Positions 101-30,773 of a stretch of DNA of 64,000 nt are shown here, piece after piece. The notes beneath the pieces were generated by a model. That model did not search any database and was not told where the DNA came from. It was given only the letters and a program-made list of their open reading frames with translations. Position numbers and translations under genes: made by a program. How positions within the stretch are numbered: the stretch's first letter is position 1; every line of letters begins with the position of its first letter. Source of the stretch: Bacteroidaceae bacterium (GTDB taxonomy: Bacteria > Bacteroidota > Bacteroidia > Bacteroidales > Bacteroidaceae); assembly GCA_017650105.1 (NCBI GenBank), contig JAGCFO010000028.1, positions 1 through 64,000 on the forward strand, written 5' to 3'.

Positions 101-402
101 TAGTCCAGGTCGTAAGATGGGGCTCCATTCCTCGTTTTATGTTCTTGGGTGGGGCAATTCAGTTTATTGGCTTTACTGAAAATCTTTGTGATATGACAGG
201 TATCTCTGATGAGCTGGTTGAGATACTTGATGAGCTGACTCTTTTGGCTGATAGGGTGTTTGTGTTTATTGATGGGTATAGTGCGTTTTTTGGTGTGACG
301 GGAAGGCTGTTCAGTTGGAGGAGAGAGTTTGTGACTTGATTGATAATAAATATGCCTGTGTTGAGAAGGGAAAAAATGTTTTTGTTTTTTCTTATGGGCG
401 TT
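101..402. other. Intergenic stretch without a supported gene
   Basis: About 300 bases between the rRNA terminator and the convergent end of the next gene. A 66-codon ORF at 139-339 (+) and a 114-codon ORF on the other strand are open, but neither resembles a protein I recognise, and there is no promoter-like TAnnTTTG ahead of the plus ORF. The right end holds a degenerate 21-bp repeat array (362-403). Confidence 0.5.
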
Positions 403-3724: not shown

Positions 3725-3816
3725 TCTGCAAGAGGGCGATATTTTGGGCAAAGAAAAAAATTTTTTGCTCAAAGAAAAAAAAATTATTCCCAAAGAAAAA
3801 AAATTTTTCCTTTGCC
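3725..3816. repeat. 21-bp repeat array, 4 plus units and an inverted unit
   Basis: Plus units start at 3725, 3746, 3767 and 3788, exactly 21 bp apart. Heads are GGGCAAAGA, GCTCAAAGA and TCCCAAAGA, each followed by an A-tract then a T-tract. An inverted unit (GGGCAAAGG head on the minus strand) covers 3796-3816 and shares the A/T tail with the last plus unit. Confidence 0.75.
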
Positions 3817-13336: not shown

Positions 13337-13498
13337 GCTGTTCAGGGTGTTCTCTCTTTCGTGCTGTGCAAATTTAGGCAGATTCTTTCTTTTTTCCCAA
13401 CAATTGCGAAGAAACATTGTCGGCTCGAAGGAGTTTCTTGCTTCATAGTCGGAGTAGGGGAAATCGTCGCCTTTGTCTGCCGTTTTTAGGGGAAAAAC

Positions 13499-13530
13499 TT
13501 GCATTGTTCAAATTTGTTCACTATCTTTGC
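13499..13530 (+). promoter_or_regulatory. Likely promoter of the HU-wHTH gene
   Basis: TATCTTTG at 13523-13530 fits the -7 consensus; a weak TTG at 13499-13501 lies 21 bp upstream. The predicted start of transcription (about 13536) places the whole 22-bp-phased array (13551-13635) in the 5' leader. Confidence 0.55.
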
Positions 13531-13550
13531 AAAAGAAGGATTTTTGTTGT

Positions 13551-13635
13551 TGCAACACGTTGGGACACCTTACCCAACACGTTGGGACACCTTGCACAAC
13601 ACGTTGGGAAAGCTTGCGCAACGTGTTGGTGCAAC
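13551..13635. promoter_or_regulatory. Four CAACACGTTG sites phased at exactly 22 bp
   Basis: Near-palindromic cores CAACACGTTG start at 13553, 13575 and 13597; the fourth at 13619 is the inverted form CAACGTGTTG. Spacing is 22 bp each time. The segment GGGACACCTT follows the first two cores. The outer arms (TTGTTGTTGCAACACG on the left, CGTGTTGGTGCAAC on the right) can also pair into a long hairpin. It lies between the promoter and the ATG at 13672, so it is probably an operator cluster, perhaps for autoregulation by the gene product, or a structured leader. Confidence 0.7.
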
Positions 13636-13671: not shown

Positions 13672-14349
13672 ATGAAACCATCATCCAAGACAAAGAAGAG
13701 CGGGAAGATACTCTTCCAGACGGTGCGCCGTTCTGCCGTGCGCGGCGAGCAACTTCCCGCAGGGCAGGAGCCTATCCGCCTGATGCCCTACAACCAAGCG
13801 ACAATCAGCACACAGGAACTGGCTGAAATCATCTCCGGGCGTTGCACGGTGAAGGAGCCCGACGTGTACGCCACGCTTATGGCGCTCTCGCAAGTGCTGG
13901 CAGAGACGCTTCTCGACGGCAACCGCCTTCGGGTGGACGGAGTGGGTACCTTCGACATCTCGCTGAAACAGAAGGACTTGCAAGCCGACGGGACGGAACA
14001 TCAGCCAAAGACGATGTCCGACACCGTTCGTGCCGAGGACGTCTGCATCAGCCGCGTCATTTTCACTCCCAGCAGCGAGCTGCAGAAGGCGCTGAAGCGC
14101 GCTGTTTTTGTAAGCAGCGGGGTGGATGCTGCCGATACCCTCTCGCGCGAAGAGCTCGACACGTTCCTCTCGCAGCATTTCGCAACGCAGCCAGCCCTCC
14201 AACGCCGACAGCTTGAAGAGCATTTCTCACTCTCTCGAAACCAGGCCATCCGCTGGCTCAAAATCCTTACCGACGAAGGCGTCCTCCAGCCCCTCGGAGC
14301 ACGCAACGCCCGCATCTACATTCCCGCGCGGGGCAACTTCGGAGCGTAA
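13672..14349 (+). CDS. HU-family DNA-binding protein fused to a winged helix
   Basis: 225 aa, cytoplasmic. Residues 1-125 follow the Bacteroidetes HU-like fold (QTVRRSAVRGEQ, ISTQELAEIISGRCTVKEPDVYATLMALSQVLAETLLDG and RVDGVGTFDISL). Residues about 150-220 form a helix-turn-helix region (LSREELDTFLS, QLEEHFSLSRNQAIRWLKILTDEGVLQPLG). This corresponds to the HU-HIG group (HU domain fused to wHTH, Ig or Gly-rich motif). It likely binds DNA as a regulator or nucleoid protein. The phased CAACACGTTG sites in its leader are obvious candidate targets. No partner gene is evident; the next gene is an orphan vsr 220 bp away. Confidence 0.85.
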   Translation: MKPSSKTKKSGKILFQTVRRSAVRGEQLPAGQEPIRLMPYNQATISTQELAEIISGRCTVKEPDVYATLMALSQVLAETLLDGNRLRVDGVGTFDISLKQKDLQADGTEHQPKTMSDTVRAEDVCISRVIFTPSSELQKALKRAVFVSSGVDAADTLSREELDTFLSQHFATQPALQRRQLEEHFSLSRNQAIRWLKILTDEGVLQPLGARNARIYIPARGNFGA

Positions 14350-20400: not shown

Positions 20401-20713
20401 ACTTTCCGAAATTTTTCGCAAAAGTACATTTTTTTTGTGAATTGCTGTGCCTTGTGGGCCAAAAAGAATGGGCGTTTTTTTTATTGAGCAAAAAATTTTT
20501 TTCTTTCTTCAAAAAAATTTTTCCCTTCTTCATATCGCGCGTTTCCTTCTTCATATTTTCTGCTGTCCAGAAGATAGCCTGAAGGGGGGAGAAAAGGCTG
20601 TCTTTTCGCTTATTCTGCAGGCGGGGAGGAGAGAAGAAAAGTTTTTTTATGTGATGTAAAGAAAAATCATTATTTTTGCGCTGGAAACGAAACTTCTTAA
20701 TCTTATCGCAATC
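20401..20713. other. Divergent intergenic region with repeat array
   Basis: Lies between uxuA (-) and pncB (+). It holds a five-unit 21-bp repeat array (20469-20573) and a -7-like TATTTTTG at 20671-20678 ahead of pncB, without a clear -33 element. No gene seen. Confidence 0.6.
20469..20573 (-). repeat. 21-bp repeat array, 5 units
   Basis: Minus-strand units in exact phase: 20553-20573, 20532-20552 (GAAGAAGGA with AACGCGCGATAT), 20511-20531 (GAAGAAGGG with AAAAATTTTTTT), 20490-20510 (GAAGAAAGA with AAAAAATTTTTT) and 20469-20489 (GCTCAATAA head). Confidence 0.85.
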
Positions 20714-24768: not shown

Positions 24769-26802
24769 TTACCAGATTTGAGCTCTCTTCTCGGGAGCGA
24801 GATAGAGGGCGTTGTCTGGAGTGATGTTGAAAGCGTCGTACCAAGCATCGATGTGAGGCAGAGTACCGTTCACGCGCCAACGTCCCAAGGAGTGCGGGTC
24901 ACTCTTTGTTAACTGACGGATGGCCTCATCTCTGATTTGTCCTGCCCAGACTCCTGCATAAGCCAAGAAGAAGCGTTGATCGGGTGTGAAGCCGAATTTA
25001 TCCTCCAGCGGGGCATCTTTCGTAGCGTTTTTGAAGGCTTGATAGGCTACCATCAAACCTCCATGATCGGCGATGTTTTCTCCCAAAGTGAGGGAACCGT
25101 TTCCATGAAGGCTGTCGCTTTTCAGAACTACGATGTTGTCGAAATGATCGACAAGCACTTGAGCACGTTCCTTAAATTTTTCTCCGTCGCCTGCAGCCCA
25201 CCAATCCGTGAAGTTGCCGTCTTTGTCAAACTGTCGTCCCTGATCGTCAAATCCGTGCGTCATTTCATGCCCGATTACTACGCCGATGGCTCCATAGTTG
25301 AAAGCATCGTCAGCATTCATGTCGAAGAAAGGATACTGCAGGATGCCGGCAGGGAAGCATATCTCGTTGGTAGTTGGGTTGTAGTAGGCGTTGACTGTCT
25401 GCGGAGTCATATGCCATTCGGTGTTGTCGACAGGCTTTTTGAATTTGCGCTCAACCATATCGTTCCAGCTGAATTTGCCTACTTCCACAAGATTTTCGTA
25501 AAGGCTCTTGGATGGGTCGACTGTCAGTTTAGAATAGTCTTTCCATTTGTCGGGATAGCCGACTTTCACGTAGAATGCGTCGAGCTTCTCGTGTGCGCGG
25601 GCTTTTGTGGAGTCGCTCATCCACTCCTGAGCGTCGATGCGCTCGCCAAGTGCTATCTGCAGATTGCGAACCAACTGTTCCATGCGGGCTTTTGCCTCTG
25701 CGGGGAAGTATTTCTCCACGTAGATTTGTCCAATTGCCTCACCCATAACGCCGCTCACGAGGCTTGTAGCCCTTTTCCATGTGGGCTGCTGCTCCTGACG
25801 TCCACTGAGGATAGTTCCGAAGAAGTGGAAGTTCTCCTCGTCGAGTTCGTGGTTGAGAGAAGATGCATTGCCGGTAATAACTTGCCAAAGCATATATGAC
25901 TTCTGCTTCTCAACGGGAGTTTCTGCCATCAGAGCCTCGACTTCATGTATGGGCTCGGGCTGGTTCATGTCCACTTCCTCCACTCCTTCCAAGCCGAGCT
26001 TGGTAAAGAGGTAGTTCCAGTCGATTCCCGGGAACTGAGCCTTCAGTTCGTCGTAGCTCATCTTGTGATAGTTAGCGGCTGGATCGCGCATTTGTACGCG
26101 GCTGTATGAAGCTTTTGCGATGCGGGTTTCAATCTCCATTACGTCGTTCATTTTCTGCTGGGCCTCCTCCTCGGAAAATCCGCAGAGGGTGAACATCTTG
26201 ACGATGTGCTGCTTGTATGCCTCGCGGATGGCAGTTGTTGCCTCGTCGGTGTCGAGATAGTAGTCTTTCTGCCCGAGAGTCAACCCGCCTTGCCCGATTT
26301 GCAGGATGTTGCTCTTGCTATCCATCATGTCGGCGCCGATGTACATCCCGAAGTAGCCGTCAACTCCGTTGAACGTGAGGTTAACCATCTCTTTTGCAAG
26401 GTCTTCCTTCGTGCTGATAGCGGCAATGCGATTCAGTATGGGACGAATGGGCTCGATGCCCTCCTTGTCTCTGCGCAGCGTATCCATATAGATGTTGTAC
26501 AGATCGGCAATCTTCTGCACGTTTCCTTCAGTCGATTTCTTCGAAACGACTTCCTCTATTATGCCCTTGAGCTGTTCGCGTGTGTCTTCGGCTACTTTGT
26601 CGAAGCTGCCGTAGCGTGAATACTCGGGTGCGATGGGATGAAGCGCCATCCAGCCTCCGCATGCGTACTGATAGAAATCGTCGCCTGCAACGGCCGTCAA
26701 GTCAAGATTTTCGGTTTTGATACCTGCGTCCATAGTCTTTTTTCCTGAACATGCAGCGAGGCAGAGAGCCACAGCTGCGATTAGTAGATACAATTTTTTC
26801 AT
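24769..26802 (-). CDS. M13 family zinc metallopeptidase, lipoprotein
   Basis: 677 aa from the ATG at 26802 (MKKLYLLIA). Lipoprotein signal with lipobox LAAC at about residue 18. Neprilysin/PepO-like peptidase: long N-terminal helical region (DDFYQYACGGW, the family start), NAYYNPTTNEICFPAGILQ, the zinc motif VIGHEMTHGFDDQGRQFD (HExxH, near residue 512), ENIADHGGL (third ligand Glu) and FFLAYAGVW. Length is normal for bacterial M13. It should sit in the outer membrane or periplasm and degrade peptides. It follows the ABC-F gene after a long repeat array. Confidence 0.93.
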   Translation of the reverse strand: MKKLYLLIAAVALCLAACSGKKTMDAGIKTENLDLTAVAGDDFYQYACGGWMALHPIAPEYSRYGSFDKVAEDTREQLKGIIEEVVSKKSTEGNVQKIADLYNIYMDTLRRDKEGIEPIRPILNRIAAISTKEDLAKEMVNLTFNGVDGYFGMYIGADMMDSKSNILQIGQGGLTLGQKDYYLDTDEATTAIREAYKQHIVKMFTLCGFSEEEAQQKMNDVMEIETRIAKASYSRVQMRDPAANYHKMSYDELKAQFPGIDWNYLFTKLGLEGVEEVDMNQPEPIHEVEALMAETPVEKQKSYMLWQVITGNASSLNHELDEENFHFFGTILSGRQEQQPTWKRATSLVSGVMGEAIGQIYVEKYFPAEAKARMEQLVRNLQIALGERIDAQEWMSDSTKARAHEKLDAFYVKVGYPDKWKDYSKLTVDPSKSLYENLVEVGKFSWNDMVERKFKKPVDNTEWHMTPQTVNAYYNPTTNEICFPAGILQYPFFDMNADDAFNYGAIGVVIGHEMTHGFDDQGRQFDKDGNFTDWWAAGDGEKFKERAQVLVDHFDNIVVLKSDSLHGNGSLTLGENIADHGGLMVAYQAFKNATKDAPLEDKFGFTPDQRFFLAYAGVWAGQIRDEAIRQLTKSDPHSLGRWRVNGTLPHIDAWYDAFNITPDNALYLAPEKRAQIW

Positions 26803-26850
26803 TTGTTGATGCAATTTTGTTAATTGTCCAAATTATTGTTGTCTCAGTCG

Positions 26851-27018
26851 ATAGTCATTTTTTCTTTGAGCAAAAGATTTTTTTCTTTCTTCATCTCGCG
26901 ATATTTGTTCTCCAAAAATTTTTTTCCCTTCTTCATATCGCGCGCTTCCTTCTCGAAAAATCGGTATGCTCTGTTCATATCTTTTTCCTCCTTGCTGATG
27001 GTACAAGAATGCTTCTCG
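26851..27018 (-). repeat. 21-bp repeat array, 8 units
   Basis: Eight minus-strand units in unbroken 21-bp phase from 27018 down to 26851: heads CGAGAAGCA, CAGCAAGGA, GAACAGAGC, CGAGAAGGA, GAAGAAGGG, GGAGAACAA, GAAGAAAGA and GCTCAAAGA. A ninth possible unit (27019-27039) runs into the last codons of the ABC-F gene. In one minus frame the array reads as a continuous string of heptads (EKEARDM, KKGKKFL, ENKYREM). Confidence 0.85.
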
Positions 27019-30381: not shown

Positions 30382-30773
30382 TCAGTTTGGTATCCCCTTG
30401 AGGCGAAAAGCTATCCTGCAGCAGAAGTAAAGCTTCTCTCAAGCCGAAAAGACAAAACACCCTAATTCTCACGGGTGCCAACGATTTGAAGGAAGCCAAA
30501 AGAATTATGCGTAGTGCATATTCTTTTTTGGGCAAAGCATATCTCATTTTGGAGAACAAATATCGCGCTATGAAGAAGGGAAAAAATATTTTGGAGAACA
30601 CATATCGCGATATGGAGAACAAATAATCCGATATGTAGAAAGCATATCTTCTCCTGCCTCATGCACAAGGCTCGCATACTTTTGGGTTTCGGAAAAAATG
30701 CTGCTCCCCCGAATGAATTCTCATTTCACCCAGAGGAGCATAGCTTCGATGTCGCAATGTGTGTGCTGCTGAC
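30382..30773. other. Convergent intergenic region (392 bp) with the longest plus-strand array
   Basis: Lies between two gene ends (CE7 + and GH76 -). 30488-30655 is an eight-unit 21-bp array. The flanks (30382-30487, 30656-30773) show no gene and no clear terminator hairpin. Confidence 0.6.
30488..30655 (+). repeat. 21-bp repeat array, 8 units
   Basis: Units start at 30488, 30509, 30530, 30551, 30572, 30593, 30614 and 30635 without any slip. The clearest are 30551 (GGAGAACAA with ATATCGCGCTAT), 30572 (GAAGAAGGG with AAAAAATATTTT), 30593 (GGAGAACAC with ATATCGCGATAT) and 30614 (GGAGAACAA with ATAATCCGATAT). This is the best place to see the unit. Confidence 0.9.

Follow-up and report, generated by a model that had tools for sequence, protein, structure and literature searches.

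What is the function of a phased array of near-palindromes that lies between the start of transcription and the start codon of a gene for an HU-like protein? A sequence-only reading of the window (the whole 64-kb stretch of Bacteroidaceae DNA analyzed here) had seen this array as a site through which the protein might control itself, and had offered a hairpin in the leader RNA as an alternative. Our results point to autoregulation as the best reading, and indicate that the same element stands at many other chromosomal sites.

A 22-bp array in the leader of an HU-like gene

Three direct copies of the core CAACACGTTG and an inverted fourth (CAACGTGTTG) lie exactly where the sequence-only reading had placed them, each separated from the next by the same step of exactly 22 bp (Table 1), and exact matches to CAACACGTTG in the 64-kb window are confined to the array cores. 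A chance origin of the array is ruled out by this core spacing, by the TRF call (period 22, 3.5 copies and 87% match across 13553–13629) and by a shuffle comparison in which the leader reached a lag-22 match score of 39/44 against a maximum of 23 (100 shuffles). Two features had gone undescribed in that reading: the 12-bp spacers (GGACACCTTACC, GGACACCTTGCA and GGAAAGCTTGCG) are near-palindromes too, so that core and spacer dyads follow one another at 11-bp intervals, and the array is bordered on both sides by arms that complement each other. A second dyad displaced by 11 bp was also found in 24 of 46 leaders, compared to 6% of shuffled units. The earlier placement of the array 3′ of a likely promoter, in the leader of a gene encoding HU and putative winged-helix domains (HU-wHTH), agrees with our annotation, in which it sits between a promoter of Bacteroidetes type inferred from sequence (CTTG-N20-TATCTTTG) and the ATG of the 225-aa HU-HIG gene at 13672. 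Likewise, the array is unrelated in sequence to the 21-bp family with which it had been contrasted. An A/T-rich 21-bp array family (GAAGAAGG/ATATCGCGATAT) is present in the window at 3742–3808, in the upstream region of 19210, and at 20489–20532, 26787–26961 and 30539–30640; no cognate protein was found for this family.

HU proteins are usually viewed as non-specific DNA benders. The protein encoded here scored 59.2 bits against the PF18291 (HU-HIG) profile, above its curated cut-off of 26.2, and ten of ten diverse members matched the same profile, which reportedly stems from a 2017 paper on the HU/IHF superfamily. Its conserved C-terminal region gave weak helix-turn-helix matches (3iwz, E 0.0011; HTH_36, Crp and others in single members). 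A search of a viral collection with the single protein found no relatives. A gene for a Vsr-type mismatch endonuclease (PF03852, 14570–15226) follows the HU gene.

Table 1 Features of the array, its leader and the encoded protein (window positions unless residues are given)
Feature	Position	Strand	Basis or remark
Inferred Bacteroidetes-type promoter	13498–13529	+	CTTG (about -33) 13498–13501, 20-bp spacer, TATCTTTG (-7) 13522–13529
Left arm TTTTTGTTGTTG	13541–13552		complements right arm; paired in predicted fold; found in dispersed copies
Core A1 CAACACGTTG	13553–13562	+	sequence
Spacer palindrome B1 GGACACCTTACC	13563–13574		dyad 11 bp from core dyads
Core A2 CAACACGTTG	13575–13584	+	sequence
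Spacer palindrome B2 GGACACCTTGCA	13585–13596		sequence
Core A3 CAACACGTTG	13597–13606	+	sequence
Spacer palindrome B3 GGAAAGCTTGCG	13607–13618		sequence
Core A4, + strand reading CAACGTGTTG	13619–13628	-	sequence
Right arm GTGCAACAAAAAA	13629–13641		sequence; alignment boundaries of dispersed copies
225-aa HU-like protein	13672–14349	+	HU-HIG domain residues 31–144; PF18291 profile match
Winged-helix-like C-terminal region	residues about 156–225		putative recognition helix SRNQAIRWLK, residues 188–197

Most full-length genes of this family in gut and rumen Bacteroidales have their own, differently spelled 22-bp array at the start of transcription. For each gene, the 300 bp upstream of the coding region were evaluated for the best-scoring repeat period among 12–40. 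Counting species that share ancestry, and thus are not independent, the best period was exactly 22 bp in 38 of 42 leaders of close paralogues; among 23 more distant HU genes, 12 had a best period of 22 and two had one of 21. Outside the genus, full-length HU-wHTH genes showed a period of 22 in 17 of 30 cases and of 21 in five, and all eight leaders from Bacteroides, Parabacteroides, Phocaeicola and two phage contigs had period 22, including that of the Parabacteroides distasonis HU gene directly upstream of rpsL. Some single-domain HU-HIG genes outside the genus likewise show 22-bp leaders, and the 138-aa HU-HIG genes of the source genome lack the period. No clear array was seen in some HU-wHTH leaders (e.g., G181.C131, G047.C193, G047.C3 and G059.C55). 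Among 302 control leaders of non-HU genes, a lag-22 score of at least 28 was reached by two, both of them dispersed copies of the array family; most lag-21 leaders among these controls are explained by the A/T-rich 21-bp family.

The relation to the promoter is similarly regular. The strict -7 consensus TAnYTTTG was found upstream of 33 of 46 leader arrays (1.3% in shuffles), and in these 33 leaders the array begins a median of 12 nt after the box. Between the end of the array and the start codon there is a median of 49 nt. As in an operator array, the candidate sites thus extend across the start region of the gene for the protein itself. Two side observations concern other family members: a 208-aa full-length HU-HIG gene of the source genome (L179, G000:C43:58084) has its own 21-bp leader array (CTTTTATATAAAAGGCGCCCT), and HU-wHTH genes on plasmid-labelled records of Bacteroides finegoldii and Bacteroides sp. 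(L442–L444), each with its own 22-bp leader, neighbor genes for VapE-domain, BT4734/BF3469-family or DUF3874 proteins typical of mobile elements.

Dispersed copies and their spelling

The supposition of a site unique to the HU leader did not hold. The genome search for core pairs at 22 bp that the sequence-only reading had proposed recovered arrays at 16 intergenic loci of the source genome, and a unique autoregulatory site is therefore rejected. The dispersed copies are discrete elements of about 95 bp with complementary arms at their edges, several of which (L322, L325, L329, L332 and L336) are embedded in repeated segments of 200–370 bp that may represent a composite mobile element. Within this genome, the HU-leader array alone stands near a gene start and directly after a promoter. 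Across nine related genomes, none of 79 arrays (78 dispersed) falls inside a called gene and few are close to gene starts, a distribution that speaks against a classic regulon. Convergent gene pairs appeared enriched for arrays (20/57 vs. 36/210, p 0.005), and 20 of 24 arrays lay on the 3′ side; as both comparisons use improvised gene calling and count orthologues twice, they are reported here and not relied on.

Arrays of paralogues look unrelated to one another: CAACACGTTG in the source genome (G000), CACGAAGG/ACGTGTTCCTTC in G015, AACGGGTTAGGACACGTGTCC in G011 and TTCGCGAA/CARCG in G012. Patterns derived from leaders were scanned over 19 genomes of the genus, with reversed patterns as control. 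For the CACGAAGG type, G015 had 41 matches at 17 loci, and the other 18 genomes and the reversed controls had none; the AACGGGTT type matched 78 times in G011 and no more than 12 times in any other genome; and the TTCRCGAA type had 48 matches in G012, 14 in G014 and 10 in G004, with few or none elsewhere. CAAC arrays abound in G000, G015, G008, G016 and G003; nine genomes lack them, including those whose examined HU-wHTH leaders have other arrays. The GATGNGCATC type occurs at four loci, upstream of HU-type genes only, with no dispersed copies. This last type implies that leader arrays are independent of dispersal and, as one of five leader types tested, that a genome-wide role is not general.

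This turnover also takes place at fixed positions. Dispersed arrays stay at orthologous sites across species, and two orthologous intergenic pairs (L327/L448 and L326/L450) hold a CAAC array in G000 and a CACGAAGG array in G015 at the same place. The same switch separates the HU leaders of these genomes, in which the promoter and the 3′ leader can still be aligned, and the two HU proteins are 75% identical. Lack of conserved cores in orthologous leaders was one of two findings that had been named in advance as counting against the original idea. The core letters are indeed not kept, whereas the architecture is, and leader arrays and dispersed copies are respelled jointly. Close species retain their arrays at the same positions, where whole 22-bp units can be gained or lost. 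As separate observations, the leader arrays of HU genes with identical protein sequence in G016 and G003 (L195 and L194) differ by exactly 44 bp (two units), and the B spacers of L302–L321 (G016/G008) surround an ACGT centre with half-site flanks that are drawn, in numerous combinations, from a limited repertoire (ATAC, AGCC, GGTA, TGCA and similar).

An array of this kind could also be a mobile or copied repeat (MITE or REP-like), spread and homogenized by transposition or gene conversion, whose leader copy is the oldest or a tolerated one and is not bound by protein. Sharp boundaries at about 95 bp with complementary arms, the copies lying within longer repeated segments, and the precedent of BrickBuilt, a 23-bp intergenic family of Porphyromonas gingivalis described as a MITE (PMC4596501), are as expected of such an element. 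Nearly all close paralogues nevertheless have leader arrays, including the type without dispersed copies; dispersed arrays stay at orthologous sites between species and are respelled in place; and the tie to HU genes and to the promoter would be left unexplained. We consider this explanation unlikely.

Form of the site and its candidate reader

The hairpin of the outer arms offered by the sequence-only reading is disfavored, as the transcript strand has no folding advantage over the complementary one. The sense strand was more stable than the antisense in 19 of 46 leaders (p 0.29), G-U pairs were not enriched in these leaders (94/1493 vs. 121/1541), no Rfam covariance-model match was obtained up to E 1, and no GC stem with a T run behind it, as in an intrinsic terminator, was found at the array; double-stranded DNA is thus favored as the selected form. 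Control at the RNA level, in which a long leader hairpin with paired arms would govern stability, translation or attenuation, could draw on the observations that the leader RNA has a more stable fold than shuffled sequences (z -2.9) and that the arms are complementary in many paralogues. Set against these, in addition to the strand, G-U, Rfam and terminator results, is the location of the majority of copies outside leaders, and we regard RNA control as improbable.

The putative recognition helix reads SRNQAIRWLK in G000 and SQKQANRWLK in G015. In a comparison of 45 leaders, more similar helices go with more similar arrays once the remainder of the protein is taken into account (partial r 0.28, permutation p 0.0005). 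Other protein windows correlate with array similarity as well as the helix does, and the helix is therefore not established as the sole specificity determinant. Furthermore, the prediction that genomes rich in CAAC arrays carry full-length HU-wHTH proteins failed in three rumen genomes with many CAACRYGTTG arrays, in which a full-length relative was looked for and none found. In two of these three, single-domain HU-HIG genes form families, and most of their leaders carry the CAACACGTTG core, exact or with one letter changed, a short distance after a TACCTTTG-like box. Since single-domain HU-HIG genes can also have 22-bp leaders, the winged helix may not be the reader, and the HU-HIG domain may read the sequence instead. 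We give least credence to the idea that another factor binds the arrays and that the HU-like gene is a conserved member of its regulon: arrays at single-domain genes without a winged helix and the putative status of the reading domain would suit it, but different arrays for each paralogue in one genome would demand many co-evolving outside factors, and array similarity tracks the protein's own sequence.

Proposed role and known systems

Autoregulation through the leader array is the best reading because the array follows the promoter and because a 22-bp leader array is widespread in the gene family, although the array is not confined to the leader. In our judgment, the array is probably an operator-like site at which the HU-like protein binds and represses its own gene, and the protein probably also occupies the dispersed intergenic arrays. 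HU-like dimers would bind the near-palindromes that alternate in 11-bp steps along some 76 bp from the transcription start; this position at the start of the transcript suggests negative autoregulation, in which the bound protein would obstruct transcription at initiation or early in elongation and so lower its own synthesis. The same protein would occupy about 15 more arrays of like sequence in intergenic DNA, and a shift in the specificity of a protein would carry leader and dispersed arrays with it. Because dispersed sites mostly avoid promoters, chromosome shaping or insulation appears a more likely role for them than promoter control, and this is the weakest step of the proposal. We know of no published binding test.

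The distribution of arrays suggests a large unrecognized family of DNA-binding proteins, each member of which would mark the chromosome through a site that is private to it and co-evolves with it. We put forward more tentatively, at somewhat less than even confidence, that an order-wide HU-like family may use private, fast-changing 22-bp array codes, with protein, leader array and dispersed arrays switching specificity together. Judged from sequence, members of a very large Bacteroidales family, abundant human gut genera included, appear to read specific 22-bp arrays and to control themselves, and in several species 10 to 20 chromosomal sites are apparently marked by such arrays. If true, the fast joint change of protein, operator and dispersed sites would offer a natural experiment in the evolution of DNA recognition, could account for orphan intergenic repeats such as BrickBuilt, and would make the order-wide array code a diversifying, site-specific bacterial chromatin system. 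The idea can be tested directly in cultured species, for example with the Parabacteroides distasonis HU-family gene upstream of rpsL.

Among published repeats, BrickBuilt is the nearest parallel that we found. It is a tandem 23-nt repeat with 19 intergenic copies per genome, restricted to its species and read as a MITE, and its shortest copy (BrickBuilt_14, 84 nt) is listed in Table 1 of that report directly upstream of PGN_0872, a + strand gene for a DNA-binding protein of the HU family (PF00216) (PMC4596501). Both families are thus species-restricted, intergenic tandem repeats of about two helical turns, and the position of BrickBuilt_14 fits the HU-leader rule found here. They differ in unit length (23 nt as opposed to 22 bp) and in extent, BrickBuilt having a leader and a tail segment, both long, and terminal inverted repeats where the element here spans about 95 bp with short complementary arms only; BrickBuilt is read as a transposable element with promoters, and the parts of that report considered here connect it to no cognate HU-like protein (PMC4596501).

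The protein itself is a clear member of HU-HIG (PF18291), for which we found, in the open-access full-text literature, no description of a link to arrays or of an array or regulatory mechanism. Enterobacterial REP/BIME elements, which are bound by IHF, HU or gyrase, are similarly short palindromic intergenic repeats, often 3′ of genes, that involve HU-superfamily proteins; the array here differs in its fixed 22-bp phase, its copy at the start site of an HU-like gene and its paralogue-specific spelling. Chromosome-organizing proteins such as MatP, Noc and SlmA each have about 20 to 70 dispersed palindromic sites (matS, NBS and SBS, respectively). Those are single, slowly evolving sites of proteins that have another fold and are not known to have a family-wide array in their own leaders, whereas arrays of 3.5 units are found here. 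The element may nonetheless work like such a site-specific nucleoid protein system, with dispersed sites and an operator at the protein's own gene, the new part being its private, co-diversifying arrays.
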